From contig NZ_AP018291.1 of assembly GCF_002368415.1 (NCBI RefSeq), positions 186,001-250,000 on the forward strand: a stretch of 64,000 bases of DNA, read 5' to 3'. The DNA comes from Calothrix sp. NIES-4105. Its GTDB lineage: Bacteria > Cyanobacteriota > Cyanobacteriia > Cyanobacteriales > Nostocaceae. Shown here in pieces: positions 35,524 through 62,972 of the stretch (position 1 is the stretch's first letter; each line of letters begins with the position of its first letter). The notes beneath the pieces were generated by a model that did not search any database, was not told the DNA's origin, and saw only the letters and a program-made list of their open reading frames with translations. Both the position numbers and the translations under genes were made by a program.

Positions 35524-36276
35524 TTATGCGTAACAATTGAAAATATTTGTTTGAATTGTTAATTCATCAATTGCTCGCGCGTATGCAATTGAAATTGCTG
35601 GGTCACGACTATTCTGATACTTAGTACCTTTGTCACCGCTAAGTTGACCACTTGCTGAGTCAGCACTGAATAGCAACCCAATAATTAAATTATCATCAAG
35701 CTGCCTTTTTGATAGTCCATAGCCATGTGGTTTTATATCGGGTCGCTGCATTTTTATTGAAGTCAGTATCGAAAAGACTTCACTGTTTGGGCGCCGTTTT
35801 AACCCCCCAACCCCGACCCAGGCATTTTGCTGAATAGCATCACCATATTGTGAAAGATGACAATTGTAGTCTGCTGCTGTTTTACCTTGTAGTATAGGTA
35901 TTACATACGGGAGGTTACGTTCATCAAACTCCTCACAAACTTGGTCGTAGATATCCAGTAATTCATAATCATATTCCTCGTCAGCATATTCCATGAAACT
36001 CGCATGAAGCTCCACCATTGCTTCAAGATGAATATCTTTCAGGTGCTTTTTGATCTGATGGTATCGATGTATTGTTAAACGTTGATGTGCAGGGACATCG
36101 AGTTTTGTGAAATCAAGTACCTCATCGAAGCATGGGTAGTCCTGGGTAGAGGCGCCGACGAGAGAACCACCCACTAACTTACTATTCAGTGCCCATTTAT
36201 ATATAGTACTTGCATATTTTTTTGTGGATGGGTAGGGTTTACCATTGAGTAGTCGCGTAAATCCGCAATCTAGCAA
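35524..36276 (-). CDS. DpdA/TGT-like deazapurine transferase domain protein, N-terminally truncated
   Basis: 250 codons. LLDCGFTRLLNGKPYPSTKK resembles the substrate-binding DSGxFtxl segment of tRNA-guanine transglycosylase-like proteins. YVIPILQGKTAADYNCHLSQ and NAWVGVGGLKRRPN match the VLQG and VGvGs/KR segments of DpdA-family enzymes, and IKPHGYGLSK corresponds to their HgFGl motif. Such enzymes insert 7-deazaguanine into DNA or tRNA. No ATG precedes: TTG at 36276 opens the frame and a TAG lies 24-30 bp upstream, so the usual ~50 N-terminal residues are missing. Probably a remnant; no preQ0 genes are nearby. Confidence 0.6.
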   Translation of the reverse strand: MLDCGFTRLLNGKPYPSTKKYASTIYKWALNSKLVGGSLVGASTQDYPCFDEVLDFTKLDVPAHQRLTIHRYHQIKKHLKDIHLEAMVELHASFMEYADEEYDYELLDIYDQVCEEFDERNLPYVIPILQGKTAADYNCHLSQYGDAIQQNAWVGVGGLKRRPNSEVFSILTSIKMQRPDIKPHGYGLSKRQLDDNLIIGLLFSADSASGQLSGDKGTKYQNSRDPAISIAYARAIDELTIQTNIFNCYA

Positions 36277-36672: not shown

Positions 36673-38196
36673 CTACGCACAATTTGTTTTTACTTTAATA
36701 AGATGCTTAGAATTTAACCATCCCATATAGACAGCCGCTTCAAGCGTATAACCTAACTCCTCAAGAAATTGTACAGTACGATTAAGCAAGATTTTATGAA
36801 CGGCTTCTTTTTTCATAAACCGTGTTATCTCTGAATCTAAGGCGCGGTTTTTAATATTGATAGCTGCATTCATATCCGACTGTAATATTACACCTTGGTA
36901 ACTAATAAATTGGTCTCCAATACGCTTCCCTAGTAATGTTCCATTATTTGAATCAAGCTGTGAAGTATATGCTGGATTTACAAGTGTAACCTTTGCACCC
37001 TTTCTGACAGATATTTCATCTAATGCTTTTTGTAATTCTCCCTTTGACCATTCATTTAATTTTCGATTAATGGCTTTTGCTTTTTTCTTGCCTTTGATAT
37101 GTTTGCTCAAATCCTCTGCAACAACCTCCCCAAAGCTATTAAATATTTGATTGACATCTGTTCGGATAAGCTGCTTAATATATAAGCGCTTGACACTATC
37201 TTTTTTCGATGCTTTTTTACGTCCTAAATTACTTTTGAACATTCGTGATGATTTTTGAGCATCTACTTTTTGAGAAATTGCAAATATTACAGAGCGCTTT
37301 TTGTTTTTCTCTGTTCTTTTGCTGGAAGCAACTTTTATCACTTCACCTAGCGTTTCAACATAAGCTTGTCCATTACTGCCATAAAATCCTTCCGTAAAAC
37401 CTTTATCAAGTCCAATTATATCAGTTTTTGTTATTGCATTAACTTGAGTTGTATGTGGGTAATGCAACTCAAATTTTTCACCGTTAAAAATGAGGCGAAG
37501 CCTACCAGCTTTTGGACAAGTTCTTCCAGTATGAATTTTAATTTCTACCCACTGACATTTTTGACCATCCATAAAAGTTGGTATCTTGTAAGTTGTAACA
37601 CTTCTGCCATCCTTAGTTATTTTACCTTTCATAGAAGAAGCTGTTGCATTAATTACAATTTGATTATTAACCCAAGTGTGACCCCGTTTATAAAACTGCC
37701 TCACCCAACGACAAAGAATTGGGTACTGATGCCACACTGAATAAGCAGAATTAATTGCTATGATTAATTCTTGTCTAAAAGAGGTTTCTGGAATATCAAC
37801 ACACACTAACTTTTTACCTTTCTGAATTAGCGTGCGCTCTGGTTTAAAATGTTCGTATATTTTACGAATGATTTGTGCTTTTGCTGCTTCTTGAGTAGCG
37901 TGAATATCGTCCAGTACTGCCTGAACTGTTCTTTCCCATATTTCGGAGGACAGGTTAAACCGTTCTGCTCCGCAAATTCTACGTAGTTTTACATCGTTTC
38001 TAATATTCTTAATAATTTCATTTTTATTAATACCCCAAGACTGAAGTGAGCCATACTTATTCCACAGTTCTGAGCGAAGTTTTCCTAACACTGAGGCTAG
38101 ATCAATCAACGACTGATTGATAGTGCCAACAGAATATGCGATTCTGGTAACAGTGTATTCAGTTGTTTGGATTGGCTTTTTATTTACTATATTCAT
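36673..38196 (-). CDS. TnpB/Cas12-like RuvC nuclease lacking the zinc finger
   Basis: 507 residues from the ATG at 38196. RuvC-I TDIIGLDKGFTEGFYGS, RuvC-II GEVVAEDLSKHIKG and RuvC-III LQSDMNAAINI all keep their acidic residues, so a catalytic nuclease is likely. Between RuvC-II and III, TnpB proteins normally carry two CxxC pairs after the PAYTSQ motif; here PAYTSQLDSNNGTLLGKRIG has no cysteine at all. The N-terminal ~240 residues are longer than in compact TnpB. It resembles type V-U-like TnpB derivatives, but I cannot place it in a named subtype. No TnpA is adjacent. Confidence 0.72.
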   Translation of the reverse strand: MNIVNKKPIQTTEYTVTRIAYSVGTINQSLIDLASVLGKLRSELWNKYGSLQSWGINKNEIIKNIRNDVKLRRICGAERFNLSSEIWERTVQAVLDDIHATQEAAKAQIIRKIYEHFKPERTLIQKGKKLVCVDIPETSFRQELIIAINSAYSVWHQYPILCRWVRQFYKRGHTWVNNQIVINATASSMKGKITKDGRSVTTYKIPTFMDGQKCQWVEIKIHTGRTCPKAGRLRLIFNGEKFELHYPHTTQVNAITKTDIIGLDKGFTEGFYGSNGQAYVETLGEVIKVASSKRTEKNKKRSVIFAISQKVDAQKSSRMFKSNLGRKKASKKDSVKRLYIKQLIRTDVNQIFNSFGEVVAEDLSKHIKGKKKAKAINRKLNEWSKGELQKALDEISVRKGAKVTLVNPAYTSQLDSNNGTLLGKRIGDQFISYQGVILQSDMNAAINIKNRALDSEITRFMKKEAVHKILLNRTVQFLEELGYTLEAAVYMGWLNSKHLIKVKTNCA

Positions 38197-38205
38197 ATAT
38201 TTCAA

Positions 38206-38619: not shown

Positions 38620-39573
38620 TTACCGCAGTTTGGCTGATTCCAGCCAGGAAAAAACAGCATTATGTGTTTGGAGATAAGATTTAATGGCGTTTGCGATAAA
38701 CTCTGCCAACTTCACGGGTACGGCATTACCAATCATTTCTTCTAAATTGGTGTTTGTTTCATTACTGAAATCAAAGTTTGACGGGAATGTTTGAATCGCC
38801 GCACGTTCAAACGTAGTCAGTGGTCGTAGTTTTGAATTAATAGGCGCCGTATCACTTGGATGACCCTTATAACCCGGTGGTATCGGTCGATTCGTTCCCC
38901 GAATTGTGGGCGATGGTTCCGAAATACTGAATACTGCTCGCCTTTTATAACTGCGTGCGTGTCTATAATAATGTTCGATGTTGAGACTATCGCCAAAATA
39001 ATCACGCACCGTCATTGGTTTGGATGACAATCCTGCGTTTAAATAGGGTAGTAACTCATGGTCGGCGCCATTGAATACCCCCACACAGATGTAACGTTGC
39101 CTGTTTTGGGGTACTCCACAATATGCGGCATTGAATACTTTTTCAGTTAATCCATATTTATTACGTTTTAATATTTCGATAACTTGTTTATATTTTTTGC
39201 TTTTTTGATAGCGTTCAACATTTTCCATTACGAATATTGATGGTTGAATGTATTCAATTAATTCAGCAAATCTGATACTCAAATCTCCGCGACCACTATC
39301 TTCATTACGGGAGCCAGCAGAGCTAAAATCTTGACATGGTGGGCTACCAGTAATAAAATTGCATTTTGTTTTTCTAATAAATTTCCAATTTGCTTTATCC
39401 CCAATATCAAGATTATGAATAGGGTGTGTGAAATTTTTGCGGTAAACATTTATTGCTGGTTTCCAATTATCAACGGCGCCAATAATATTGAGTTTTGCAT
39501 TTGCAAAGCCAAGCGACATCCCACCACAACCAGCAAATAGGTCGATGATTCGTAAAGAATTGATATTTATCAT
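38620..39573 (-). CDS. C5-cytosine DNA methyltransferase (Dcm type)
   Basis: 317 residues with the ordered motifs of m5C methyltransferases: I DLFAGCGGMSLGF, IV GSPPCQDFSSAG with the catalytic Cys, VI ENVERYQ, VIII QNRQRYICVGV, a short target-recognition region (about 165-235), IX RPLTTFERAAIQTFP and X MIGNAVPVKLAEF. Complete and probably active. Specificity cannot be read from sequence. GGCGCC and GCGCGC are hyper-abundant here, and a GC-only palindrome is a reasonable guess for its site. No clear endonuclease is adjacent, so it may be an orphan. Confidence 0.93.
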   Translation of the reverse strand: MININSLRIIDLFAGCGGMSLGFANAKLNIIGAVDNWKPAINVYRKNFTHPIHNLDIGDKANWKFIRKTKCNFITGSPPCQDFSSAGSRNEDSGRGDLSIRFAELIEYIQPSIFVMENVERYQKSKKYKQVIEILKRNKYGLTEKVFNAAYCGVPQNRQRYICVGVFNGADHELLPYLNAGLSSKPMTVRDYFGDSLNIEHYYRHARSYKRRAVFSISEPSPTIRGTNRPIPPGYKGHPSDTAPINSKLRPLTTFERAAIQTFPSNFDFSNETNTNLEEMIGNAVPVKLAEFIANAIKSYLQTHNAVFSWLESAKLR

Positions 39574-42039: not shown

Positions 42040-42182
42040 TAAAACCTTCAGTAAAAAGTAATAAGGTTGAGAAAAAACCTCGTAAAAAAAGGTGTAAAAC
42101 TAAACCCGAACTACCCACTATTGGTGTTCAACTCGACTTGTTTAATAGCTTTGACGGGGATGCTGAGGGGTTAGTCGGCTAA
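42024..42182 (+). CDS. Small basic protein, uncertain
   Basis: 52 codons from an ATG that overlaps, divergently, the start of the zinc-ribbon gene by 16 bp. Lys/Arg-rich, then PELPTIGVQLDLFNSFDGD. The coding-like ending (acidic, no stops) is suggestive, but it is antisense to the last codons of the truncated target gene at 42171-42309. Confidence 0.3.
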   Translation: MYCPSLKPSVKSNKVEKKPRKKRCKTKPELPTIGVQLDLFNSFDGDAEGLVG

Positions 42183-42309
42183 AATCCAGAAGAATCCGTA
42201 TCCATATTTTAATGAAATTGGAAACGGTATTTCAATTTGATGTTGAAGGTATTCTTGGTCAGGCGGGTCTAGCCATAATCTGTCGTACTCCGCGTATATT
42301 TTAATTAAT
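42171..42309 (-). pseudogene. 3' end of a protein-coding gene interrupted by the CAST (target gene)
   Basis: Minus-strand open frame ending at TAA 42171-42173. It encodes IYAEYDRLWLDPPDQEYLQH and then IEIPFPISLKYGYGFFWILA. Upstream it runs straight into the transposon end at 42310 and meets a stop inside the transposon, so the 5' part of the gene has been separated. The protein family is unknown to me. The segment YDRLWLDPPDQE is exactly the part matched by CRISPR spacer 42799-42834. Confidence 0.65.
42252..42287 (+). other. Protospacer matched by the CAST spacer, with GTA PAM
   Basis: The 36 bases equal the reverse complement of the spacer at 42799-42834 except at 42272, 42275, 42279 and 42285. 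The first 20 bases after the PAM are identical. The three bases before it (42249-42251) are GTA, fitting the 5'-GTN PAM of Cas12k. The transposon end starts 22 bp beyond the protospacer, 58 bp from the PAM. Three of the four differences are synonymous in the target gene frame. Confidence 0.85.
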
Positions 42310-42380
42310 TGTAGAGGGACAAGCTAAATGACCGTGGAGACAATTTATTTGTCAAAATGCAGAGAGACAATTTACTTGTA
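42310..42380. mobile_element. CAST transposon end (cas12k/CRISPR side, right end) with TnsB-binding-like repeats
   Basis: Reading inward, TGTAGAGGGACAA resembles the V-K terminus TGTACAGTGACAA (11 of 13 positions, compared from memory). Three TnsB-site-like repeats follow: GACAAGCTAAATGAC (42318-42332), GACAATTTATTTGTC (42339-42353) and GACAATTTACTTGTA (42366-42380). The bases before the end are TTAAT (42305-42309), the possible target-site duplication. The opposite end was not found in the window. Confidence 0.75.
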
Positions 42381-42617
42381 AATTTTACCCAAATAACCAT
42401 CAAAGCGATAAAAAAACATATTAACTTTCGCTTAACTGTTGAATAATAATCATTCTTTCAATATATTGCTTGCTAAAATAACTGAATATCAATAATTTTG
42501 CAATACATCTCAATTTTCAAGAGTCCTATGCTCTTTTCAACTTTCCGGAGCCACATTGATTTTGAACTACTGTCGAAACAGTTATTCTTTCATATACAAA
42601 ATAGCTGCATCCCAAAA

Positions 42618-42866
42618 ATTTCAAACCACCCATAGCTGGAATGGTTATTGAAACTATAATTCTGGGCGAAGTATACTTCCTTTCTGAGACTTTCAACCCA
42701 CCCATAGCTGGAATGGTTATTGAAACACTGAAAAATCATAGTCCCGTTTCCAGCACTTCAAGCTTTCAACCCACCATAGCTGGAATGGTTATTGAAACTA
42801 TGACAGGTTAAGGTTAGACCCGCCTGACCAAGAACTTTCAACCCACCCTGAAATGGTTATTGAAAC
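42618..42866 (-). CRISPR. Type V-K CRISPR array, four repeats and three spacers
   Basis: Repeats (minus-strand sense GTTTCAATAACC ... GGGTGGGTTGAAAG) at 42618-42654, 42690-42726, 42763-42798 and 42835-42866. The second is full length (37 bp), the third lacks one base, the fourth has a ~5-bp internal deletion, and the first is degenerate at two positions. Spacers at 42655-42689, 42727-42762 and 42799-42834 are 35, 36 and 36 nt. The repeat closely resembles those of Scytonema/Anabaena V-K CASTs. No adaptation genes are present, as usual for V-K. The sequence after the degenerate repeat (42582-42617) could be a delocalised spacer. Confidence 0.95.
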
Positions 42867-43066
42867 TCCGCCAATCCAGAACCTTATCAGTAAAGCTTTT
42901 TCTAATACAAATTTGGTGCCGCCCTAAAAAAGCATCTTCATTATAAATGAAAAAATTAAATTAATTGACAAGCTTGTACTTGAATCAGTTACCATATAAG
43001 GATTTTAATATTTTGGCGGGATTCCAGTGATTTTACCTCCGCTTCGATACGCCAAAAAAAATATTT

Positions 43067-43420
43067 GGAGGGTTCCCCCGACGAAGGGGGTGATTCAGTA
43101 GCCACCACTGAGGTAGTCCTCACCGTTATGCAATTATGCAACGGTTCAAGCTTTTCAGCTATACTCTTTTTTGCTGGGAGCGCACCTATCCCTCTTTTCC
43201 GATTCCTAAATATAAGCATTCTTCTTTGTTATCAAAACATAGAAGTATGTTGGTTATCCTAAGACAGAAAAGAAGATGTATCCTGTCTGAACTAGCCAGA
43301 CAGCAGCTTCAAGAGCGGGCAGCTACCAGGGTCCAGAAAGCAAAACGGTTTTCAACCCGTTAAACTAACCCAAATTTATCACTATTCAGAGGCTAAAAGC
43401 ATGAATAGCGGCGCTATTCC
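43067..43420 (-). ncRNA. Cas12k tracrRNA gene, interrupted by a small insert
   Basis: Minus-strand sequence follows the known V-K tracrRNA in order: AATAGCGCCGC near the 5' end, GGGTTAGTTT, GCTTTCTG-ACCCTGGTAGCTGC, the GACAGGATA segment, GGTGCGCTCCCAGC, then GGTGGCTACTGAATCACCCC and the anti-repeat GGGGGAACCCTCC at 43067-43079. Comparison is with the S. hofmannii tracrRNA from memory. Between GACAGGATA and GGTGCGC there are ~92 extra bases (see separate entry). It lies between the cas12k remnant and the CRISPR array, as in canonical V-K loci. The 200 bp from 42867 to 43066 show no gene. Confidence 0.85.
43187..43283. mobile_element. MITE-like 87-bp insert inside the tracrRNA gene
   Basis: An insert at 43192-43278 is flanked by the direct repeat TATCC (43187-43191 and 43279-43283). 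Its ends are imperfect inverted repeats (CTCTTTTCCG and, reversed, TTCTTTTCTG), and it contains an ACATA-GAAG-TATGT hairpin. Removing the insert and one TATCC restores the uninterrupted canonical segment. Too small to encode a transposase, so it would be mobilised in trans. Confidence 0.6.
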
Positions 43421-43469
43421 TTAAATAATATAATTATATTTTCAAGGTTCTGTTTTATTTAACAAATTT

Positions 43470-44084
43470 TTACTTATTTAACATAGCTTGGCGTTTTTTG
43501 TAGGCGCAAATCGCTAAATCTTTTGCTTGCTCTTGAGGACTACCCTTTGTTTGCTGAGATGGTGTTTCTATTGTAATTCCAGCTTTTGCTGCTTGGGCTT
43601 GAATGTTATCAATTAATCTTCCATAGCCCCAACGGTGAACACTCATACGGTACTCTTTTGCGTACTTTTGCTGACCTTCTTTGTATCCTGAAATCTTAGT
43701 TTCTGCTTTTGCTTGAATTTCGCTCTGAATGATTTCTCGCATATCACGAAGTTTTGGTAGAGCAATACTACTAGCTTGGTAAGTTACTGCGAAGTTAATT
43801 ATTGACTTGGCTAACAACCTGTCTAAATATTGTCCTAGCTCTGATTCACCCAATTGATTCGGCGCCTGTTTCTTTTGCGATTCGTGACGTTTTTGAGCAA
43901 GACGTTGCTGCTGCTGTCGCTGACGGTTTAAGAGTTTGTAGTTTTGACCAAGTAGTTGTTTAACACTACGATAAGCCAAAACTTTATTGCTCACTACGTC
44001 TACTGCTGCTACAGTCGCTGGTTTTTTCAATCCTAAACTAACTCCTACAAGGATATGTAAATTACCCGTTTGGAGGTAACGCAA
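43470..44084 (-). pseudogene. cas12k: Cas12k C-terminal remnant
   Basis: 204 codons from a TTG inside a foreign junction; homology to Cas12k starts at about residue 7 (GNLHILVGVSLGLKKPATVA) and continues to the natural end (GSPQEQAKDLAICAYKKRQA). Diagnostic segments: LNRQRQQQQRLAQKRHESQK, APNQLGESELGQYLDRLLAK, LPKLRDMREIIQSEIQAKAE and YRMSVHRWGYGRLIDNIQAQ. Full Cas12k is about 640 residues, so the REC/PAM-interacting two thirds are gone. Cas12k is a naturally nuclease-inactive effector that guides Tn7-like transposition. This remnant cannot bind the target normally, so the element is no longer guided by its own effector. Confidence 0.93.
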
Positions 44085-44266: not shown

Positions 44267-44462
44267 TCACACATTTTCTAAGGGACTTCCAAAAATTAAA
44301 TTAACCATCTCTTGTGGGATGGGGTACAGCATTAGCAAATCAGCAACTAAAGTGGTAAGTCGCTGATTTTGACGGTGTATAGTTTGTAAAATATCGCGCA
44401 TTTCTTCTTCATCTAATTGTGGCGATAACAGCGCTGACTCTACAGTGGTGCCTGTGCGGCTA
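44267..44462 (-). pseudogene. Histidine kinase HisKA fragment
   Basis: A ~65-codon open frame reads VESALLSPQLDEEEMRDILQ and TIHRQNQRLTTLVADLLML, matching the second part of a HisKA dimerisation domain (ETIHRQ...LVNDLLLL). No start codon, phospho-His region or ATPase domain remains. It lies next to the 3' end of arsH and the broken cas12k. The rest of 44085-44266 shows no supportable gene. Confidence 0.5.
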
Positions 44463-45128
44463 CAGCTTGCCTTTACCTGAGTTCATTTCAAGAGGCTTCG
44501 CTAACGTTATTGCTTCTTTAGCTGCTTTTTCCTTACGTTCGCTATAGCGATCAGTAAGATAATCAATTTGGGAGCGTAGCAGCATAGTGAACTTATAAAG
44601 TTCTTCCATAACATCAATAACTCGGTCACGATACGGCGAATCTTTCATAGTGCCATCTTCATGAAATTCTTCGTATGCTTTGGGAACTGAAGACTGATTT
44701 GGAATTGTAAACATTCGCATCCAGCGTCCTAAAAGGCGCAAAGTATTTACCGCATTGAATGACTGGGAACCTCCGCTTACCTGCATAACTGCTAAAGTTC
44801 TACCCTGAGTTGGTCGAATTGAACCAATATTAAGCGGAATCCAATCAATTTGATTTTTCATAATACCTGAAACGTTGCCATGCAGTTCAGGTGATGACCA
44901 AACTTGACCTTCTGACCATTGGCTTAATTCGCGCAATTCTTGCACTTTAGGATGGGTATCGGGAACACTTCTATGAATTGGCAATTCACGCGGGTCAAAA
45001 AACCGAACTTCGGCGCCATATCCTTCAATAATGCGCGCGGCTTCTTCGGCGAGAAGACGACTATAAGAACGCTCGCGTAAAGAGCCATACAAAAATAAAA
45101 TTCTTGGTTTGTGATCAAATGTGGTCAT
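44460..45128 (-). CDS. arsH: ArsH organoarsenical oxidase (NADPH-dependent FMN protein)
   Basis: 222 residues from the ATG at 45128. Flavodoxin-like FMN-binding motif [20 protein letters not shown], then [20 protein letters not shown] and [14 protein letters not shown], characteristic of ArsH. The enzyme oxidises trivalent methylated or aromatic arsenicals to less toxic pentavalent forms and can reduce other acceptors with NADPH. First gene of the arsenic cargo next to the cas12k remnant; it fits with arsM at the other end. No damage is seen. Confidence 0.92.
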
Positions 45129-45174
45129 CAGTAAGTACTTAAATATAAACTTTAATAATTTTATACATTTACTA

Positions 45175-45435
45175 TCAAAGTGTGCCATATTTTATCATGA
45201 TATGGCACACTTCCTCGAATAACATAGCAAGCTCAATACCATCTGAACTTTTTTCGCCGTGCAGTTCCACCATAAAGACAACCCACTTACCATACTGTTC
45301 CTCTGACCAGCTTTGAATTTTTCTGGTTATTTGACCAAGATAAAGGTCACGACCAGTTTCTGGCATAAAACCAGCCGACACAGCAGCAGCTTCACATGCT
45401 AGGAGGCATCTTTTAAACAATTCTCCATTTTTCAT
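45175..45435 (-). CDS. Small hypothetical protein of the arsenic island
   Basis: 86 residues from [23 protein letters not shown], then helices with [20 protein letters not shown]. No metal-binding Cys motif and no membrane helix. It lies between pstS-like and arsH genes on the same strand and is probably co-transcribed with them. Unknown function. Confidence 0.5.
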
Positions 45436-45566
45436 AATATTTTCTGAATAATTTTAGCCGAGTCAAAATGTTTGAGGAACCGCAAGAAGTGAGCATATTG
45501 TAGAGACGCGCGTGTCCAAGAAGATAAGCATCTCTACCGCGACACACCACACGGGAGCAACAACAA

Positions 45567-46616
45567 CTAAAATTGCTTTTGTTTGCGTAATACTTCTGCA
45601 ATTGTCAAATCAAGTTGGGGTTTACCAGCATACACTGTTCCAACCTTGTCAGTATTGAGATGGACGTAGCCAATGCGGTAAGCTTCATCTGGTAAAGGCA
45701 CATACCCTACTGAAGATGCTACTGAAGGCGCCTTTTGTAAATAAAAGTTTGCAAATTGATATGCTTCTCCTTTGCCAACGATGCGTTGAGGATTAACGTA
45801 AATGAATAAGGGTCTAGAAAGTGGTTGATACTGAGCGTTCTCTACTGTTTTGGTTTCAGGTAGAACAGCACCCTTGCCGTTATCTACTGGTACAACTTTC
45901 AACTTATCTTTATGTTCTTGGTAATATGCGTATCCAAAGTATCCCAAAGCATTAGGGTCATTGCTGACACCTTTTGCAATGACTTCATCATCTTCACTAG
46001 GAGTGTAATCATTTCGGCTTGCTCTGGCTTTTCCAACTGTTGCCTCAGTAAAGTAGTCAAATGTACCAGAATCTTTCCCGGCGCCAAATAATTTTAATGG
46101 TTGGTTAGGCCAAGATGAGCGAACTTGCGACCAATTGGTTATCTTGCCTTCTGCGGCAGGTTCCCACATTTTCTTTAATTCTTCTACGGTTATGTCTTTC
46201 GCCCAGTTGTTCTGCGGATTCACAACAATGGTTAGAGCATCGAAAGCTACGGGTATTTCTATATACGCGATATTATTTTTTCTACAAGCTTCCATTTCTT
46301 CAGTGGTAATCGGTCGAGAAGCATTGCTAATGTCTGTTTCCCCAGCGCAGAACTTTTTAAACCCACCACCAGTACCAGAAAAGTTAACTGCAATTTGTAC
46401 CTGTTTGTTTTGAGCTTGATATTCTTTAGCAATCGCTGCTGTGATTGGATACACCGTACTCGAACCATCTACCTTGATTGTGGAAATAGTTTGGGAATTA
46501 CTGACTGCACTCGCAGAAGGCACCTGTTGCGTTTGAGTAGATTGGTTCGATGTGGATGTGCAACTTGCCAATGCCAGTATTCCTGATACCAGAGCCAACT
46601 TTACTACGGTATTCAT
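45567..46616 (-). CDS. PstS-like phosphate/arsenate-binding lipoprotein (copy 1)
   Basis: 349 residues; ATG at 46616 is preceded by AAGGAG. Lipobox ALASC at about 18-22. PstS features: DGSSTVYPITAAIAKEY, NFSGTGGGFKKFCAGETDIS and ASRPITTEEME, with the phosphate-binding SGT/GSST loops. In arsenic islands such proteins probably bind arsenate or phosphate in the periplasm; no PstCAB genes are nearby, so it must use the chromosomal permease or act as a periplasmic trap. It is about 60-70% identical by eye to copy 2 at 56665. Confidence 0.88.
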   Translation of the reverse strand: MNTVVKLALVSGILALASCTSTSNQSTQTQQVPSASAVSNSQTISTIKVDGSSTVYPITAAIAKEYQAQNKQVQIAVNFSGTGGGFKKFCAGETDISNASRPITTEEMEACRKNNIAYIEIPVAFDALTIVVNPQNNWAKDITVEELKKMWEPAAEGKITNWSQVRSSWPNQPLKLFGAGKDSGTFDYFTEATVGKARASRNDYTPSEDDEVIAKGVSNDPNALGYFGYAYYQEHKDKLKVVPVDNGKGAVLPETKTVENAQYQPLSRPLFIYVNPQRIVGKGEAYQFANFYLQKAPSVASSVGYVPLPDEAYRIGYVHLNTDKVGTVYAGKPQLDLTIAEVLRKQKQF

Positions 46617-46941
46617 TAACTTCACTCCTTAATCGGGTAGTTTCAATAACATACATCTATTATTTCAAGAAAATTTGATGTATAACTATAGATGTTAGCA
46701 AAAAACACAAAACTTATCAAAATAAATTGATGCGTTTATTTAAGTACAGAAAAACTACTAAAAAATGTATATTTTTAGTCATCAGAGATATATAAGCACA
46801 CAATACTTATCAATTTTATTTGAAATAATATTTCTAGATGCATCAAAAAAAGTTGATTTATATGTATACTAAGTAATTGTTCTTGTTTTGTATATGTGCA
46901 AGATGAAGAGCAAATATATTAATTTACGTTAAGGAGAGCTA
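46617..46941. promoter_or_regulatory. Divergent promoter region with four ATCAA-N6-TTGAT operators
   Basis: No gene. WTCAA-N6-TTGAW palindromes at 46664-46679, 46716-46731, 46809-46824 and 46842-46857: two near the pstS-like gene, two near the GAPDH gene. The same motif precedes most other arsenic genes, so it is likely the site of an ArsR-family repressor (probably that at 57843-58190) released by arsenite. Confidence 0.65.
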
Positions 46942-47949
46942 ATGACGATAAGAGTTGGGATTAATGGATTTGGCAGAATTGGACGGTTAGCTCTGCGAGC
47001 AGCTTGGGGATGGTCTGATATTGAGTTTGTCCATATTAACGAAATTAAAGGTGGAGCGGTGACATCTGCCCACTTACTGAAGTTTGACTCAGTTCACGGA
47101 CGTTGGGCACCGGACGTTGCTGCAAAAGAAGATAATATTCTCATTGACGGCAAACCCTTGAGTTTTAGTGAGTACAGCGAACCAGGTAAAGTAGACTGGG
47201 CAGATTTTGGTGTAGATATTGTTTTAGAATCTTCCGGTAAATTCCGGACACCTGAGACTTTGGCGCCTTATTTTGATAGAGGGGTGAAAAAGGTTATTGT
47301 TGCGGCGCCTGTAAAGGAAGAAGCTTTAAATATAGTTATGGGAGTTAATGATTATCTCTATGAACCCGAAAAGCATCATTTATTAACAGCAGCTTCTTGT
47401 ACTACAAATTGTCTGGCGCCAGTAGTTAAGGTAATTCACGAAGGTTTGGGTATCAAACACGGTTTAGTTACCACAATACATGACCACACCAACACTCAAA
47501 TTGTAGTGGATGCGCCGCATAAAGATTTACGAAGAGCTAGAGCAGGTGGGATGTCTCTAATTCCCACAACAACAGGTTCAGCTACAGCCATAGGCTTAAT
47601 TTACCCAGAACTGAACGGCAAACTCAACGGACTTGCGGTGCGTGTACCTTTGTTGAATGCATCACTTACAGATTGTGTATTTGAAGTTACTCGACCTACA
47701 ACCGTAGAAGAAGTTAATAGTTTGTTGAAAGCTGCCGCTGAAGGCGAACTCAGAGGTATTCTTGGTTATGAAGAATTACCACTAGTCTCAATCGATTACA
47801 AAGATGACCCTCGCTCATCTATTATTGATGCGCTTTCAACAATGGTGATAGATGAAACTCAAGTCAAGATTTTGGCTTGGTATGACAACGAATGGGGTTA
47901 TGCGAACCGCATGGTTGAACTCGCGCGTAAAGTTGCACTGAGTCTTTAA
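46942..47949 (+). CDS. ArsJ-associated glyceraldehyde-3-phosphate dehydrogenase
   Basis: 335 residues, full length. NAD-binding [16 protein letters not shown] and catalytic Cys in [25 protein letters not shown] and [12 protein letters not shown] also match GAPDH. It lies 23 bp upstream of arsJ. In this pair the dehydrogenase uses arsenate in place of phosphate and makes 1-arseno-3-phosphoglycerate, which ArsJ exports, giving arsenate resistance without reduction. Strong ribosome site AAGGAGAG. Operators lie upstream. Confidence 0.95.
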
Positions 47950-47972
47950 AGCACTTATTACTTAAACCAAAC

Positions 47973-49232
47973 ATGACTACTACAGCATCGAGCGCTAACT
48001 TAAGAAATTACATTCTAGTTACACTGGCATATTGGGGCTTTACCATTACTGATGGCGCCTTGCGGATGTTGGTGTTGCTGTATTTTAATAACATTGGCTA
48101 CACTCCAATTCAAATAGCCTCATTGTTTTTGTTTTACGAGGTTTTTGGCGTTGTTACCAACTTTCTAGGTGGTTGGATTGGTTCGCAGTTTGGACTCAAA
48201 GTAACGCTCTACACTGGTATTGGGCTACAAGTATTTTCTTTGATAATGTTGTCAGGGTTAAATCCGACCTGGCCGCAGTGGATTGCTGTATTGTTTGTAA
48301 TGGTAGCGCAAGCATTTTCTGGTGTTGCCAAAGACCTAACTAAGATGAGTACTAAAAGTGCAATTCGTTTAGTTGTACCCCAAGATGCTCAATCTTCCCT
48401 ATTTAAATGGGTGGCAATACTAACAGGTTCTAAAAATGCGCTCAAAGGAGTTGGTTTCTTTGTTGGTAGTGCGCTGCTGTCGTTAGTTGGTTTTATCAAT
48501 GCTTTATGGATTATGGCAGCAGGACTTTTCCTGCTAATGTTCAGCGGATTAATGCTTCCAAAAGGAATGGGTAAAATCAAGAAAAAGGTCAAATTTACCC
48601 AACTATTTTCTAAAAGTCAAGAAATCAATGTTCTCTCTGCTGCTAGATTCTTTCTGTTTGGTTCGAGAGATGTGTGGTTTGTCGTTGGTTTACCTGTATT
48701 TTTACGTAGTGTTTTAGGTTGGTCTTTTTACCAAGTCGGAGGTTTTCTTGCTATTTGGGTGATTGCTTACGGTATTGTACAATCTTCGGCGCCGACATTA
48801 TTAAAACGTTTTGGTTCGGGTCGTCCTCCTACTGCATCGACTATCCAATTTTGGACTTTTACCTTAACCGCAGTTCCTGCACTTATTGCTATTGGGTTAC
48901 AAGCGGGTATAGAGCCTAACACCGTAATTATTGCTGGACTGCTACTATTTGGTTTAGTGTTTGCTTTCAACTCTGCAGTGCATTCTTACTTAGTGTTAGC
49001 GTTTACCGACGATGACAAAGTAGCGTTAAATGTAGGCTTTTATTACATGGCAAACTCTGCTGGCAGGTTAGCAGGTACAGTGCTATCTGGAGTAATTTAC
49101 CAAGCATTTGGATTGATTGGGTGTCTATGGACTTCGATGTTATTTATTTTGGCAGCAGGGTTAGTTTCACTAAAATTACCGAATCCTCAACCAAGTAAGG
49201 ATATTGCTTGGAAGGCAGGGGAAGGAGATTAG
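47973..49232 (+). CDS. arsJ: ArsJ organoarsenical efflux transporter (MFS)
   Basis: 419 residues with 12 hydrophobic helices. NYILVTLAYWGFTITDGALR and LFLFYEVFGVVTNFLGGWIG are typical of ArsJ, as is LTKMSTKSAIRLVVP in the central region. It exports the unstable 1-arseno-3-phosphoglycerate made by the upstream GAPDH. Translation is probably coupled in the same operon. Complete. Confidence 0.94.
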   Translation: MTTTASSANLRNYILVTLAYWGFTITDGALRMLVLLYFNNIGYTPIQIASLFLFYEVFGVVTNFLGGWIGSQFGLKVTLYTGIGLQVFSLIMLSGLNPTWPQWIAVLFVMVAQAFSGVAKDLTKMSTKSAIRLVVPQDAQSSLFKWVAILTGSKNALKGVGFFVGSALLSLVGFINALWIMAAGLFLLMFSGLMLPKGMGKIKKKVKFTQLFSKSQEINVLSAARFFLFGSRDVWFVVGLPVFLRSVLGWSFYQVGGFLAIWVIAYGIVQSSAPTLLKRFGSGRPPTASTIQFWTFTLTAVPALIAIGLQAGIEPNTVIIAGLLLFGLVFAFNSAVHSYLVLAFTDDDKVALNVGFYYMANSAGRLAGTVLSGVIYQAFGLIGCLWTSMLFILAAGLVSLKLPNPQPSKDIAWKAGEGD

Positions 49233-49320
49233 CAACGGATGCTGTTTCAAGCATAGGGCGGGCGGGGACGCTCACCCCACAAGAAAAATCTTTACATATT
49301 AAATAAAGGATATAAACTAA

Positions 49321-49470
49321 TGGAGCAGCAAGCAGTTCAGCCAATTCTAGAAAATCTGTGGTGGGTAGTTTCAATAACATACATCTATCATATGAATAAA
49401 ATTTGATGGATAACTACAAATGTCAGCAAACAAACATAAAACTTATCAAAAAAAATTGATGGATTAATTT
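49321..49470 (+). repeat. Duplicated 5' fragment of the phosphatase gene plus duplicated operator region
   Basis: Positions 49321-49365 encode MEQQAVQPILENLWWV, nearly the start of the phosphatase at 50494 (MEQEQIQPIKENLWWV). The fragment stops there and joins directly to 49363-49470, a copy of the pstS upstream region at 46634-46735 including ATCAA-N6-TTGAT (49445-49460). This composite marks an old rearrangement inside the cargo. Confidence 0.75.
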
Positions 49471-49486
49471 GATATCGGTGCCAGCG

Positions 49487-50164
49487 CTATTCTTTAAGTA
49501 CGTTGTAAAGCAATACTGCTAATTGCCCGCCTAATATTGGTCCTATCCAGTAGATCCAATGGTGCTGCCAAATTCCTCCTACGAATGCAGGACTAAAAGA
49601 ACGCGCCGGATTCATACTTGCTCCTGTAATTGGTCCCATAAACAAAGCTTCCAGTCCAACAGTCAAACCAATTGCCAGAGGTGCAAAACCAACGTGCGCG
49701 CGTTTATCAAGACCTGAGCCAAAAATCACAAACATTAAAATGCAAGTAAGGATGGTTTCTAAAATTAGAGATTGCAACCAGTTACCGTGAAGCGGTAAAG
49801 TTGCACCCAAATTAGCAACTCTCCCCAAGCTGATTAGCAGCATAAATGAAGCTGCGACTGCTCCAAATAGTTGTGACAAAATATACTGAAGGACTTGCCG
49901 TGCGGGAAAAAATCCACTTGTCCATAATGCTAAAGTGACTGCTGGGTTAAAGTGGGCACCACTCGTATGCCCCATCGAATAAATTAAAGCAGCCACGACA
50001 GCACCAAAAACAAAGCTAATACCAACATGCGTAATAGCTCCCTGACCGATCTGATTTACCATCACAGCACCAGTACCAGCAAACACTAAGATGAAAGTGC
50101 CGATTGCCTCTGCTAGCATCGAACGCCAGCAACGCAATAGCGACTTTGGTAAAGAATTCTTCAA
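49487..50164 (-). CDS. Aquaporin/glycerol-facilitator family channel (AqpS-like)
   Basis: 225 residues from a TTG start preceded by GAGGAG. Six membrane helices and both NPA boxes (GAHFNPAVTLALW, GASMNPARSFSPAF). In arsenic operons such channels let arsenite formed by arsenate reduction leave down its gradient. Operators of the ATCAA-N6-TTGAT type lie at 50206-50221 and 50259-50274, immediately upstream. The arsenite role rests on context. Confidence 0.92.
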   Translation of the reverse strand: MKNSLPKSLLRCWRSMLAEAIGTFILVFAGTGAVMVNQIGQGAITHVGISFVFGAVVAALIYSMGHTSGAHFNPAVTLALWTSGFFPARQVLQYILSQLFGAVAASFMLLISLGRVANLGATLPLHGNWLQSLILETILTCILMFVIFGSGLDKRAHVGFAPLAIGLTVGLEALFMGPITGASMNPARSFSPAFVGGIWQHHWIYWIGPILGGQLAVLLYNVLKE

Positions 50165-50493
50165 TTTTCACTCCTCACCTATTCTAGGCACGATAGATCA
50201 ATTATTTCAAAAAAAGTTGATATATAGAATGCAGAAGCAATACAAAGCAGCAAAACTTAACAAATTTATTTGATGCTTGAAGAAGATGATTGGCAGGAAC
50301 GACCTTTAATAATCAATCAACTTTTCTTAATCTAATTTTATTTTACTTAACAATTTTAGTACTTGACAAATCAAGTTTTTTTGAAATGATAGAGATACAC
50401 TTTTGATATAACTTCTATATTTTTGTCTTCGCAGTGGGATTAGATTAGCTGGTTTGAGCGACGCTATTTTTTAGTATAAAAGGGTTTAAGTAA
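50165..50493. promoter_or_regulatory. Divergent promoter region with three operators
   Basis: No gene. WTCAA-N6-TTGAW sites at 50206-50221 and 50259-50274 (aquaporin side) and ATCAA-GTTTTT-TTGAA at 50370-50385 (phosphatase side), the same motif as elsewhere in the arsenic island. Confidence 0.6.
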
Positions 50494-50952
50494 ATGGAAC
50501 AGGAACAAATCCAGCCAATCAAAGAGAACTTATGGTGGGTGACCCGTGGCAAGCTTGCAGGAGTACGTAAGCCAATGGCAGAGGAATTAACCGAGTTACA
50601 AGAGAAAGGCATTGGTGCAATTGTTTCAGTTATTCATGACCGCTCTAATCTGGATTTATATGAGCAGGCAGGTATACCCTACATTTGGCTACCCATTAAC
50701 ATAGGTTGCTCACCAAGTCTAGAACAAATTCAGCAATTACAGAACTTTGTTGATAGTCAAAATCGTCTGGGTCATGCTGTTGCAGTTCATTGTACAGGTG
50801 GAGTACATCGAACCGGAACGATGCTGGCTTCTTACTTGATTTATAATGGTTTGTCTTATAATGATGCAATGCAGAAAATTCAAAATGCGAATTCTTTTGT
50901 TGAACTCGAAGAAGCTCAAAGTAGCTTTTTACGTTCTTTAGCAGAAGCATAA
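50494..50952 (+). CDS. Dual-specificity protein phosphatase-like protein
   Basis: 152 residues. Catalytic CX5R loop in AVHCTGGVHRTGTMLASYLI and an upstream general-acid region around IGAIVSVIHDRSNLD. Family: DSP/cyanobacterial tyrosine phosphatase. Its role in arsenic resistance is not established; it could hydrolyse an arseno/phospho-ester or act on proteins. A truncated copy of its 5' end lies at 49321, and an arsenic-type operator lies upstream, so it is probably co-regulated with the ars genes. Confidence 0.82.
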   Translation: MEQEQIQPIKENLWWVTRGKLAGVRKPMAEELTELQEKGIGAIVSVIHDRSNLDLYEQAGIPYIWLPINIGCSPSLEQIQQLQNFVDSQNRLGHAVAVHCTGGVHRTGTMLASYLIYNGLSYNDAMQKIQNANSFVELEEAQSSFLRSLAEA

Positions 50953-51018
50953 GCTGTTATATATATGCTGACAATAACTTTGATGACTGCTGAATGAGAT
51001 AAAAATATTAATTTGAGT

Positions 51019-52191
51019 ATGGAACAGGGTGTATCGAGTAAATCTTCAGCACTAAGATTTGTCATTATACTAGGCATTGTTAGTATGTGCGCTGATGCAA
51101 CTTATGAAGGCGCCCGCAGTATCACAGGAGCTTATTTGGGTATTTTAGGCGCTAGTGGTTCCGTAGTTGGGCTAGTTGCAGGTTTCGGAGAATTGATTGG
51201 CTATTGTTTTCGTCTGGTTATCGGCTATCTTAGCGATAGCAGCCGACAGTATTGGAAAATTACCACACTCGGTTATTTTATCAATACCGCAGCCGTACCA
51301 CTCTTGGCTTTAGCTGGAAGTTGGCAAGTTGCAGCAGCGCTAATGCTTGGTGAACGCACAGGTAAAGCAATTCGCACTCCTCCTAGAGATGTACTTTTAT
51401 CTCACGCGGCTTTAAGGTTAGGAGGTGGGTTTGGTTTTGGACTTCATGAAGCACTCGACCAAATTGGCGCCGTTTTAGGACCTTTGGCTGTAGCAGCAGT
51501 GATTTATTTGGGTAGAGGATATCAGAGCAGCTTTGCAATTTTGTTACTACCTGCTGTTTTAGGGTTGATTGTACTCTTCGTTGGACAAAAAATATACCCA
51601 AATCCAAGCGATTTGGAACCGAAAAGCGCTGCACTCACAGGAGAAGGACTACCCCGTAAATTTTGGATTTATCTTGTTGCTGTAACGTTTATTGCTGCAG
51701 GTTACGCAGATTTTCCCTTAATTGCCTATCACTTCCAAACCAAAGGAATCGCCTCTTCCAATATTATTCCTTTATTTTATGCTTTGGCAATGGGTGTTTC
51801 TGGGATAGCAGCATTGGGATTTGGGCGTTTATTTGACCGCTTTGAAATAAAGGTACTACTATTTGCAGCTTTGTTATCTTCGTTATTCCCACCATTGGTA
51901 TTTTTTGGCGGCGCCAAGCAAGCGCTTTTAGGAATGGTACTATGGGGTGCTGGGATGGGAGCGCAAGAATCAATATTAAAAGCAACAGTTGCAATGATGG
52001 TGCCACCATCTAGACGTGGTTCTGCTTTCGGTATATTTAATAGTGGTTATGGATTATCATGGTTTTTAGGTAGTGCATTGATGGGGATTTTGTACGATAA
52101 GTCAATCACGATGCTGGTTATCTTTTCGGTAATAATCCAACTTGCAGCCATTCCAATTTTATTGTTGGTTAACAGGCAAACACAAATCTAA
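51019..52191 (+). CDS. MFS transporter of the arsenic island
   Basis: 390 residues from the ATG at 51019; a TTG six bases earlier is possible. Twelve hydrophobic helices with DATYEGARSITGAYLGILGA and ERTGKAIRTPPRDVLLSHAA, typical of a group of MFS proteins often found in ars clusters. Substrate unknown; arsenical efflux is inference. It follows the phosphatase gene by 66 bp, probably in the same transcript. Confidence 0.82.
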   Translation: MEQGVSSKSSALRFVIILGIVSMCADATYEGARSITGAYLGILGASGSVVGLVAGFGELIGYCFRLVIGYLSDSSRQYWKITTLGYFINTAAVPLLALAGSWQVAAALMLGERTGKAIRTPPRDVLLSHAALRLGGGFGFGLHEALDQIGAVLGPLAVAAVIYLGRGYQSSFAILLLPAVLGLIVLFVGQKIYPNPSDLEPKSAALTGEGLPRKFWIYLVAVTFIAAGYADFPLIAYHFQTKGIASSNIIPLFYALAMGVSGIAALGFGRLFDRFEIKVLLFAALLSSLFPPLVFFGGAKQALLGMVLWGAGMGAQESILKATVAMMVPPSRRGSAFGIFNSGYGLSWFLGSALMGILYDKSITMLVIFSVIIQLAAIPILLLVNRQTQI

Positions 52192-52280
52192 AATCATTAC
52201 CTCTATTTTTCTTGCGATTGTAAAAAACTGGTGACTTTTGATCACCAGGGTGTAGTGTAATAATTTAATAAAAAGTTAAC

Positions 52281-52676
52281 TTAATTTAAAGATTCAATTA
52301 AAGAAGCAACACGCTCCTTAACTTGGTCGCGAACTTTGCGGAATGCTTCAATATCTTCTCCTTCAGGGTCATCAAGCTGCCAATCTTCAAAAACTTCCCT
52401 AAGTACCCACTCTTCGGGTAAATTAACGCCGCAACCACATAAAGAAATTACCACATCATAGTTTTCTGGCTTAAAATTACTTAAAGTCTTAGAAGTCTGA
52501 TCACTAATATCAATATCAATTTCTAACATAACTTTAATCGCTAGCGGGTCTACTTCACTCTTTTCTAAACCTGAACTATTAACAGCTACTTTACCTTTTC
52601 CCAAAGCCCACGCAAAACCCTCTGCCATCTGAGAACGGCGAGAATTTTTCTTGCAAACAAACATAATACGTTTCAT
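52281..52676 (-). CDS. arsC: Arsenate reductase, low-molecular-weight phosphatase type
   Basis: 131 residues; start ATG 52676 chosen for the AGGAGAAAGG site upstream. CX5R loop CKKNSRRSQMAEG near the start and the redox pair in VISLCGCGVNLPEEW. This layout matches the cyanobacterial, glutaredoxin-dependent reductase (Synechocystis type). It converts arsenate to arsenite for export by Acr3, whose gene lies directly upstream on the same strand (60 bp). Confidence 0.93.
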   Translation of the reverse strand: MKRIMFVCKKNSRRSQMAEGFAWALGKGKVAVNSSGLEKSEVDPLAIKVMLEIDIDISDQTSKTLSNFKPENYDVVISLCGCGVNLPEEWVLREVFEDWQLDDPEGEDIEAFRKVRDQVKERVASLIESLN

Positions 52677-52735
52677 GCGCCTTTCTCCTTGTTGTTTAAA
52701 TATCACTGTAAGCAATTAAAAAGTTACAAAGTTAA

Positions 52736-53815
52736 CTATGATGTTGGTTCAGAAGATGGGAAAAATCGTTTTCTAAACCAAAGTGCGACATTAACTAAGC
52801 CAATTAATACTGGAACTTCTACTAATGGGCCAATTACAGCAGCAAAAGCGGCACCTGAGTTAATTCCAAATACAGCTACGGCAACAGCAATTGCTAGTTC
52901 AAAATTATTACCAGCAGCGGTAAACGCTACACTTGCTGCTTTTGCATAATCAGTTTTGATTTTCCAAGCCATGTAGAAGCTAACAAAAAACATGACTGCG
53001 AAGTAGATGAGCAGTGGAACTGCTATCCGCACTACATCGAATGGAATTTGAACAATAAGATTACCCTTCAAGCTAAACATCACCACGATAGTAAATAGTA
53101 AAGCTATCAGCGTTAGCGGACTAATCTTCGGTATAAACTCGTTGTGATACCATCTTTTTCCTTTGGCTCTAACCAAAAGAACGCGCGTTATAAATCCAGC
53201 TAAAAAAGGAATTCCCAAGTATATAAACACACTTTGGGCAATTTCTCCAATCCCAACGTTAACAGTACTTCCCTTCAAGCCAAATAAAGGTGGCAAAACA
53301 GTTATGAAAAACCAAGCGTAGGGACTATAAAACAGAACTTGAAATATACTGTTGAATGCTACAAGTCCCGCTGTATACTCAGTGTCTCCCCTCGCTAGGT
53401 CACTCCATACAATTACCATCGCAATACAACGGGCTAATCCAATTAAAATTAATCCCGCCATATACTCTGGATAACCATGTAAGAAGATAATCGCCAGAGT
53501 AAACATCAGTACTGGGCCAATCAGCCAATTTTGGAGTAGTGACAGACGCAGAATTTTTCCATTGCGAAACACATCACCTAATTCTTCATACCGCACCTTC
53601 GCAAGTGGTGGGTACATCATCAAGATTAAACCTAGCGCGATAGGTATATTAGTAGTTCCTACTTGAAACTGGTTGATAAATTTGTCTACTGCTGGTATGA
53701 AATAACCTATACATACACCAATAAACATTGCCAGAAAAATCCACAAGGTTAAGAAGCGGTCAAGAAACGAAAGTTGTTTAAGAAGATTCTTTTTCTTCAT
53801 TGCTGGATTCTGCAT
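52736..53815 (-). CDS. acr3: Acr3 arsenite efflux permease (copy 1)
   Basis: 359 residues, ten helices. The conserved arsenite-translocating Cys is present in [17 protein letters not shown], and the conserved Glu in [18 protein letters not shown]. Ribosome site GGAG lies 5 bp before ATG. It exports arsenite in antiport with protons. In operon with arsC downstream; an ATCAA-AAAAAA-TTGAT operator at 53863-53878 lies just upstream of the start. Confidence 0.95.
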
Positions 53816-53862
53816 GATTTCTCCAGGTAGCTGTATTAAATGGAAATCAAGTAAATGTAAAT

Positions 53863-53878
53863 ATCAAAAAAAATTGAT
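53863..53878. promoter_or_regulatory. ArsR-type operator upstream of acr3
   Basis: Palindrome ATCAA-AAAAAA-TTGAT, 48 bp before the acr3 start. Confidence 0.65.
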
Positions 53879-53924
53879 GCATCCCATAATAACTTAGCAC
53901 AGACGCTCCTGAACCGGAGCGTCT

Positions 53925-55289: not shown

Positions 55290-55326
55290 GTTTGTCTAGC
55301 TAGTTATCATTTCAAAAAACATATGA

Positions 55327-56373: not shown

Positions 56374-56481
56374 CAATAATTCCTTTGTTTAAACAAGCAT
56401 CCTAAGTATAAAAGTCAACTGTCAATGTACGCAGTATTGACCTTCTCTTGGTAAACTCAATTTAAAGTATATCTCTATCAT

Positions 56482-56497
56482 TTCAAAAAAAATTGAT
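56482..56497. promoter_or_regulatory. ArsR-type operator upstream of the second acr3-like gene
   Basis: TTCAA-AAAAAA-TTGAT about 110 bp before the start, within a promoter region that has further TTGAT half-sites. No other feature in 56374-56664. Confidence 0.6.
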
Positions 56498-56664
56498 TTG
56501 TCAAGAACTTGAGCTAATCAATTTGATAGATATTGATAAATCATCAGGCACCGTAATGGACATCATGTAATGTAGGAGTTAAGAAATAATTAATTATTAA
56601 CTCCAGGTTATACATTATTTATCAACACTCAAAAAACTATTGGTGAAAAATGGCTCAAATAAAT

Positions 56665-57714: not shown

Positions 57715-57723
57715 TGACTTCAC

Positions 57724-57842
57724 TCCAGTGGGTAGTTATATCAAAGGAATGAGTCCATCATTTCAAAAAAACTTGATATATAAACGCAGTTGTGATACAA
57801 AAGGGCAAGTTAAATCAAATTTATTTGATATTTCAAAAAAGA
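57724..57842. promoter_or_regulatory. Operators between arsR1 and pstS copy 2
   Basis: TTCAA-AAAAAC-TTGAT at 57762-57777 and the near-perfect palindrome ATCAAATTTATTTGAT at 57814-57829; a partial third copy touches the arsR stop. Confidence 0.65.
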
Positions 57843-58190: not shown

Positions 58191-58283
58191 TCTATTTGAT
58201 TGTTGTGTTGCTTGCCCACTCAAATTAAATTTTTCTGCTTAGAGGTTATGACTTGTAAACTATGTTGACTTTTAACCCTTTAA

Positions 58284-58299
58284 ATCGTATATTGACGAT
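58284..58299. promoter_or_regulatory. Operator ATCGTATATTGACGAT before arsR2
   Basis: Inverted repeat with arms ATCGT / ACGAT directly before the arsR2 start (58305). The same 16-mer with one change (ATCGTATATCGACGAT) lies at 58647-58662 before arsM. It differs from the ATCAA-N6-TTGAT type, so a second regulator is at work. Confidence 0.7.
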
Positions 58300-58304
58300 T
58301 AACG

Positions 58305-58628: not shown

Positions 58629-58646
58629 AATTTTTTTGTACTTTTC

Positions 58647-58662
58647 ATCGTATATCGACGAT
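58647..58662. promoter_or_regulatory. Operator ATCGTATATCGACGAT before arsM
   Basis: Second copy of the arsR2-type operator, between the arsR2 stop (58628) and arsM start (58697). Confidence 0.7.
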
Positions 58663-58696
58663 AAACAATTTAATGGTTTAGACCATAGGAGAATAT

Positions 58697-62954: not shown

Positions 62955-62972
62955 TTATTTTGTTAATTTTTA

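Follow-up and report, generated by a model that had tools for sequence, protein, structure and literature searches.

Type V-K CASTs are held to use two routes of transposition, one in which a short separate guide directs homing to tRNA genes and one in which array guides direct the element to plasmids. The CAST of Calothrix sp. NIES-4105 raises the question of whether a natural copy, still lying where it inserted, can be traced to the second of these routes, as one of its own array spacers matches the DNA just outside its CRISPR-side end. In the available text of a recent review, where homing is discussed, integrated copies are described as not lying beside protospacers of their own arrays (PMC11656645), and section 3.4 of another review, as far as its available text goes, attributes nearly all natural V-K insertions to the homing guide (PMC11406308). 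The accessible part of a further study places CAST boundaries mostly 50–60 bp from array-spacer protospacers, array and homing guides not being told apart there (PMC8649781), and the use of array spacers by CASTs against mobile elements is stated in the accessible part of PMC10293859. A literature search covering titles and the openings of abstracts found no array-guided natural V-K insertion among the hits listed, and an earlier description may exist. The stretch analysed here, referred to as the window, comprises 64,000 nucleotides, namely bases 186001–250000 of contig C2 (394,733 bp) of a 12.04-Mb genome that also contains an 11.06-Mb, chromosome-sized contig (C1). The element that it carries appears to be a record, left in nature, of the predicted plasmid-targeting route. 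The coordinates of its features are collected in Table 1.

Table 1. Features of the element and its flanks, in window coordinates
Feature	Position	Strand	Basis or remark
Target-gene remnant, residues 41–63 of the 98-aa CAL7716_102540	42237–42305	-	tblastn, 87% identity over 23 aa; right-flank alignment
PAM, GTA	42249–42251	+	sequence
Protospacer	42252–42287	+	32/36 to spacer 1
TTAAT, one copy of a putative target-site duplication, the second being lost	42305–42309	+	adjoins TGTA end
CRISPR-side transposon end, TGTA	42310–42382	+	repeat family and sequence
Two internal repeats, putative TnsB-binding sites	42337–42355, 42364–42382	+	repeat family D2
17-nt homing-type (anchor) guide GAGCATAGGACTCTTGA	42517–42533	-	16/17 to tRNA-Lys(CTT), G000:C1:1197453, GTA PAM
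Degenerate truncated repeat (R*) preceding the anchor guide	42534–42546	-	compared with truncated repeats of the survey
CRISPR array, 4 repeats and 3 spacers, same strand as cas12k and adjoining it	42618–42866	-	
R4	42618–42654	-	degenerate last repeat
Spacer 3	42655–42689	-	
R3	42690–42726	-	
Spacer 2	42727–42762	-	
R2	42763–42798	-	
Spacer 1, guide matching the flank	42799–42834	-	alignment, 36 nt
R1	42835–42866	-	32 nt, 5-nt internal deletion
Presumed tracrRNA region	42870–43469	-	position between cas12k and array
cas12k, C-terminal part only, model positions 438–629 of 629 (192)	43470–44084	-	NF038191, E=1.6e-86
Cargo, arsenic-resistance island	44460–59564		NCBIfam scan of six proteins; other genes by reading translations
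tniQ, in-frame stop 60627–60625	60418–60936	-	tblastn to Gloeothece TniQ 14–163
tnsC, present	60933–61748	-	PF05621 TniB, E=4.6e-19; tblastn to Gloeothece TnsC
tnsB, N-terminal part missing, in-frame stop 62099–62097	61752–62936	-	PF09299; tblastn to Gloeothece TnsB 219–586
tnsB-side junction, without transposon end or target-gene 5' part	62937–62975		Calothrix alignment, sequence
GGDEF gene, insertion flank	62973–63452	-	PF00990; beside the target gene in the relative (synteny)

Spacer 1 is of full length and is flanked by R1 and R2. Alignment confirmed the match as it had been proposed from the letters alone: spacer 1 and the flank agree at 32 of 36 positions, including all of the first 20 next to the PAM, the four mismatches are PAM-distal, the PAM is GTA and the TGTA end begins 58 bp from it. 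As had also been claimed, three of these mismatches are silent in the reading frame of the target gene (judged by eye on the alignment; spacer YDRLRLDPPDQE, target YDRLWLDPPDQE). The next best match of spacer 1 within the window reaches 20/36, and spacers 2 and 3 have nothing above 22/36 in the window except themselves. A search of 388 genomes of the order for the PAM together with the 20-mer, allowing up to three mismatches, gave four matches, namely, the protospacer (0 mismatches), spacer 1 (2) and two further sites (3 each; one on the host chromosome). The PAM plus the first 18–20 nt of spacers 1–3 gave no exact protospacers in IMG/VR, and the sole match of spacer 1 in PLSDB is the Calothrix homologue described below. 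The searches turned up no sister element, whether carrying spacer 1 or lacking it.

The original prediction described the matched flank as part of a gene at 42171–42309 that had been cut by the element. A protein-coding gene is interrupted there, but only ~69 bp of that span (42237–42305) are homologous to CAL7716_102540 by tblastn; the further statement that the flank is not a tRNA gene agrees with aragorn, which calls none at the target. Part of 42100–42240 resembles the chromosome in stretches that are 69–82% identical (C1: 2755620, 6252467 and 10214829), the protospacer lying outside that part. Since homology to the target gene ends at ~42237 and part of 42100–42240 is chromosome-like, the gene is cut on the CRISPR side too. 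Residues 1–39 of the target protein were absent from a search of the host genome, an empty answer that alone is weak proof. The gene for the 98-aa protein is rare: of 72,556 plasmid records, only the plasmid of Calothrix sp. PCC 7716 has the protein, and it is present in two of seven genomes of the genus, the host's own included. It has no relatives in IMG/VR, and its C-terminal part has none in phage records.

It had been proposed to look for an intact homologue of the interrupted gene, and one was found on the PCC 7716 plasmid Cal7716_p1 (AP025019.1), where the 98-aa CAL7716_102540 is uninterrupted and directly adjoins the GGDEF gene. The genes of this plasmid are collinear with C2 at 67999–62982 (partly outside the window) and then at 42305–35536, with the intact target gene lying between the two blocks. 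Because the gene is uninterrupted there and both flanks follow in the same order, the segment from 42310 to ~62950 (20.6 kb) is an insertion relative to the PCC 7716 plasmid, which is the one empty site known for it. To compare the two replicons more widely, 17 of the 19 annotated features in a 12-kb stretch of Cal7716_p1 were translated and compared with ~124 kb of C2. Fifteen of the 17 match C2 at E < 1e-3, with the best matches in the same order, and two (cal_1322_2278 and cal_6269_6769) have no match in those ~124 kb. On the strength of this common gene order, C2 can be regarded as plasmid-like. The PCC 7716 allele of the target has spacer 1's arginine codon position in common but carries ATA, not GTN, at the position of the PAM; hence, a third allele may be the source of spacer 1, or the target, once disabled, may have drifted.

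Spacer 1 is not the only guide of the element. Downstream of the array, a degenerate truncated repeat precedes a 17-nt guide of the homing type (Table 1), which the original prediction had missed, and the host chromosome contains GTA-GAGCATAGGACTCTTAA within its tRNA-Lys(CTT) gene, which agrees with this guide at 16 of 17 positions; ~0.005 matches of such quality are expected by chance in the genome. A pattern derived from guides of other elements (L085) matches the host tRNA-Lys(CTT) without mismatches, the element's own guide differing at 1 of 17 positions, and at three mismatches the same pattern yields nine weaker matches as well, reversed controls yielding five. Moreover, five of the surveyed elements (see below) have their flank match in tRNA-Lys(CTT). 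No transposon end was seen in the ~190 bases that follow the host tRNA-Lys(CTT) gene, and the host genome contains a single match to the Cas12k family. Given this separate R* and tRNA-Lys(CTT)-like guide, the element carries a homing-type guide besides the array spacer, and spacer 1 would represent a second, plasmid-directed route.

The original prediction raised one objection to its own claim, namely, that the CRISPR-side end faces the protospacer, whereas ShCAST in E. coli mostly inserts with the tnsB-side end proximal. Cas12k was sought in 388 genomes sampled from the order, 117 of which had a match. Downstream stretches were taken for 100 Cas12k matches, hand-picked among the matches listed; matches without a C-terminus or without contig downstream were left out, as were many short fragments. 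Addition of 80 further loci (the best 80 of 150) and of the present one gave 181 loci, of which 158 are unique. The main scan required the end of a repeat and, after it, 17 bases of which at least 15 match the CRISPR-side flank in inverted orientation with a GTN PAM, and it covered no other geometry. A guide match of this geometry is found in 124 of the 158 unique loci, the present one included, and 34 have none; eleven stretches are shorter than 1600 bases, ten of them without a match and one with a match. The opposite strand of the CRISPR-side flank gave no match in any of the 158 loci, and the tnsB-side flank gave none in the 52 loci whose upstream stretch spans 3000 bases or more. The available text of Ziemann et al. 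2023 (PMC9938897) agrees: natural V-K elements are described there with the CRISPR-side end adjoining the tRNA target, with homing by a guide, mostly of 17 nt, that follows a truncated repeat R*, and with a PAM-to-end distance of 46–82 nt, one exception aside. The objection is therefore mistaken, and the element is canonical in its orientation. In the survey, the PAM-to-end distance has a median of 60 bp (interquartile range 56–62, range 42–86; 72 of the 124 loci, those with one clear TGTACA end), so that the 58 bp observed here fit V-K systems, as had been predicted. The targets overlap tRNA genes called by aragorn in 104 of the 124 matched loci, the remaining 20 including the present element. 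Four loci among those surveyed (L062, L065, L081 and L201) have a common guide, ATGGGGCARATTGAGAA, whose matched flank is not a tRNA by aragorn and resembles the beginning of a protein gene (MGQIEKHSKIAM).

What sets the present element apart is how far its match extends. Past base 17, the agreement between guide and flank does not exceed 9 of 19 positions in 121 of the 124 loci, and the values for the other three are 15/19 for this element, 15/19 for an element on a plasmid of Gloeothece verrucosa and 12/19 for Laspinema sp. D2d (L088). A separate scan of 501 array spacers from the 158 loci at a threshold of 24/34 gave matches at L154, L088 and L215; spacer 1 of the present element was not counted in it because R1 is shortened. 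The L215 match lies beside its own spacer and lacks a GTN PAM. An inverted match of 25/36 at L104/L105 was set aside on reading the sequence. One locus, L098, had matched in an earlier scan, among the matches listed, and not in the main scan, probably through an added position limit. In L088, a truncated repeat precedes the guide, the match runs over 23 contiguous nt and a full repeat follows 37 nt later; its downstream ORFs look chromosomal, judging from their translations. At ~1453–1904 of the oriented stretch of this locus (L088 = L189), a truncated repeat lies inside the array between full repeats, and the target is not called as a tRNA. Among the matches listed, the array of L098 contains two identical neighbouring spacers (36/36), and that of L089 two neighbouring spacers identical at 33/36.

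The second plasmid-borne case is the element on plasmid Cy782202 of Gloeothece verrucosa PCC 7822 (NC_014534.1). Like the present element, it lies on a plasmid, has an array spacer that matches its flank (30/36, with a GTG PAM) and carries a separate homing-type guide; it differs in its spacing of 85 bp, in the family of the plasmid gene that it entered and in having all four core genes annotated. Its array consists of one full-length spacer between two repeats. The element splits a gene into a 416-aa part on one side and a 71-aa part on the other, and the same two gene parts lie 63 bp apart in four cyanobacterial plasmids (AP018275, AP018319, NZ_CP046705 and NZ_CP040288); 12 bases of the 63-bp gap remain in Gloeothece and ~50 bp are missing. 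No 5-bp duplication is present, the flanking 5-mers being AATCC and GCAAG. The array spacer also resembles two other sites on the same plasmid. Furthermore, the homing-type guide matches the host tRNA-Pro(CGG) at 14 of 17 positions, a value that alone is not significant, since one other site and reversed controls also reach 14/17; among the matches listed, this guide is similar to the tRNA-Pro guides of other elements. The Gloeothece case is weaker evidence than the element in the window, because its 85-bp spacing is at the edge of the survey range, its flanking 5-mers differ and two mismatches fall within the first 17 bases. The annotation of its cas12k (L024:10659-12705) consists of two overlapping CDS, which points to a frameshift. 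A PLSDB search with the Cas12k fragment of the present element returned one of 72,556 records at E < 1e-5. Altogether, two plasmid-borne elements were recognised, from distantly related cyanobacteria and both with an array match, the draft contigs of the survey carrying no plasmid label. In both, the homing-type guide does not explain the present site and the array guide does.

Only part of the Calothrix element survives. Judged from gene content, the type V-K core set is recognisable as Cas12k with tnsB, tnsC and tniQ, of which tnsB and tniQ are broken. The presumed tracrRNA region has no Rfam match at the gathering threshold and shows 7-nt complementarity to the repeat in a crude check. At 62936, where the tnsB reading frame begins, the alignment is already at about residue 219 of the Gloeothece protein, and an N-terminal TnsB piece (176 aa) from a relative has no match in the host genome, again an empty answer that is weak proof alone. 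Most simply, the tnsB-side end would have been lost by deletion together with both of its neighbours. Because cas12k, tnsB and tniQ are truncated or broken, this copy is a dead fossil, unable to move by itself. Between the core genes lies the arsenic-resistance cargo, in which NCBIfam names ArsH, an ArsJ-associated GAPDH, ArsJ, an aquaporin, ACR3 and an ArsM-like protein, the last below the family cut-off and short (193 aa). The cargo also includes ACR3-like transporters, ArsR-like regulators and two PstS-like phosphate-binding proteins, in part recognised from translations only.

The best explanation of these observations, to which we assign a probability of roughly 0.87, is a V-K insertion into the plasmid gene guided by spacer 1 and followed by decay. 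Cas12k would have bound the protospacer beside GTA, and TniQ, TnsC and TnsB would have joined the CRISPR-side end to the target 58 bp from the PAM. As the element also carries the homing-type guide for tRNA-Lys(CTT), both routes would have been open to it, and this copy would have used the plasmid route. Subsequent decay would have cost cas12k its N-terminal two thirds, tnsB its start, the transposon its tnsB-side end and the target gene its 5' part. We infer both that spacer 1 caused the insertion and that events took this order; the PAM, the distance, the strand, the transposon end and the empty site in the relative all support the original prediction that the spacer records an RNA-guided insertion. 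What speaks against it are the four PAM-distal mismatches, spacer 1 being an inexact copy of the present target, and the ATA at the PAM position of the PCC 7716 allele. The empty site is a single one, and evidence from a target-site duplication is lacking in both plasmid-borne elements, as one junction has been lost here and the flanking 5-mers differ in Gloeothece. In addition, the crRNA of spacer 1 may be abnormal in function, since the repeat that precedes it has a 5-nt deletion.

The element could instead have entered by another route, such as untargeted transposition or recombination, and have acquired the spacer later from its flank or from a homologous plasmid. Spacer 1 does occupy the first position of the array, which is usually that of the newest spacer. 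The available text of PMC11406308 states that V-K systems often insert off-site in experiments and that their spacers must be acquired in trans. Nevertheless, a spacer drawn at random from the 395-kb plasmid would fall on the right strand, beside a PAM and at the 58-bp spacing from the proper end in fewer than 1 in 10,000 cases, by a rough hand estimate; with 4 of 36 positions differing between spacer and flank, the former was not copied recently from this site; and a similar arrangement is found in the other plasmid-borne element. We therefore consider later acquisition improbable.

Even less probable is that spacer 1 is simply the homing guide of the element, aimed at a plasmid gene rather than at a tRNA gene. 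In its favour, R1 is atypical, as repeats of homing guides are, this element is one of the 20 matched elements whose targets are not tRNA-called, and three surveyed loci (L061, L065 and L079) likewise have a nearly full repeat before the matching guide. Those three guides, however, match over 14–18 contiguous bases only and are followed by no repeat, whereas spacer 1 measures 36 nt and lies between two repeats. Moreover, a separate homing-type guide for tRNA-Lys(CTT) exists, and a rare plasmid gene would make a poor homing site, there being no other copy of the PAM and 20-mer at fewer than three mismatches in the 388 genomes. Finally, a match by chance or through base composition can be practically dismissed despite the partial repetition of the neighbouring 42100–42240 on the chromosome, as 6.8e-10 matches of at least 32/36 are expected in 64 kb on both strands (1.3e-7 in the whole genome, under a composition model) and a complement control matched at none of 144 loci, and a common dispersed repeat is just as improbable for want of any further exact copy of the PAM and 20-mer in the 388 genomes or IMG/VR.

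Insertion guided by spacer 1 would have a wider bearing. We think it likely that natural V-K CASTs enter plasmids via full-length array spacers and retain, apart from these, a short guide for homing to tRNA genes. If this is true, the Calothrix element provides direct natural evidence for a guide-sorted plasmid route of V-K elements, and with Gloeothece the array route would have two natural cases, one of them clear and the other weaker, a homing-type guide still being present in each. Both cases would indicate the guide length, the mismatches and the spacing that natural array-guided insertion tolerates, and both offer sites that can be tested directly.

The tRNA-homing V-K CASTs (ShCAST, AcCAST, AnCAST and others) share with the present element the genes for Cas12k, TnsB, TnsC and TniQ. 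According to the available text of PMC9938897 and the survey, they also share with it repeats ending in TTGAAAG, a GTN PAM, a CRISPR-side end 46–82 nt away, and a truncated repeat with a 17-nt homing guide. The present element differs from them in that the guide matching its site is a 36-nt array spacer, in that its target is a protein gene on a plasmid-like replicon, and in being decayed. Type I-F3 CASTs (Tn6900 and others) likewise have two routes, an att guide and array guides, the latter aimed mostly at mobile plasmids, as stated in the accessible part of PMC11406308; they differ in using Cascade rather than Cas12k and belong to other families and hosts.

Two further loci on the plasmid lie outside the element. 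A 510-aa protein with a Cas12f1-like TNB domain (TnpB-like) is encoded at 36673–38205 on the minus strand, and a DpdA-like (deoxypurine in DNA) protein at 35524–36276, also on the minus strand, near a cytosine-5 DNA methylase at 38620–39573 (minus strand).
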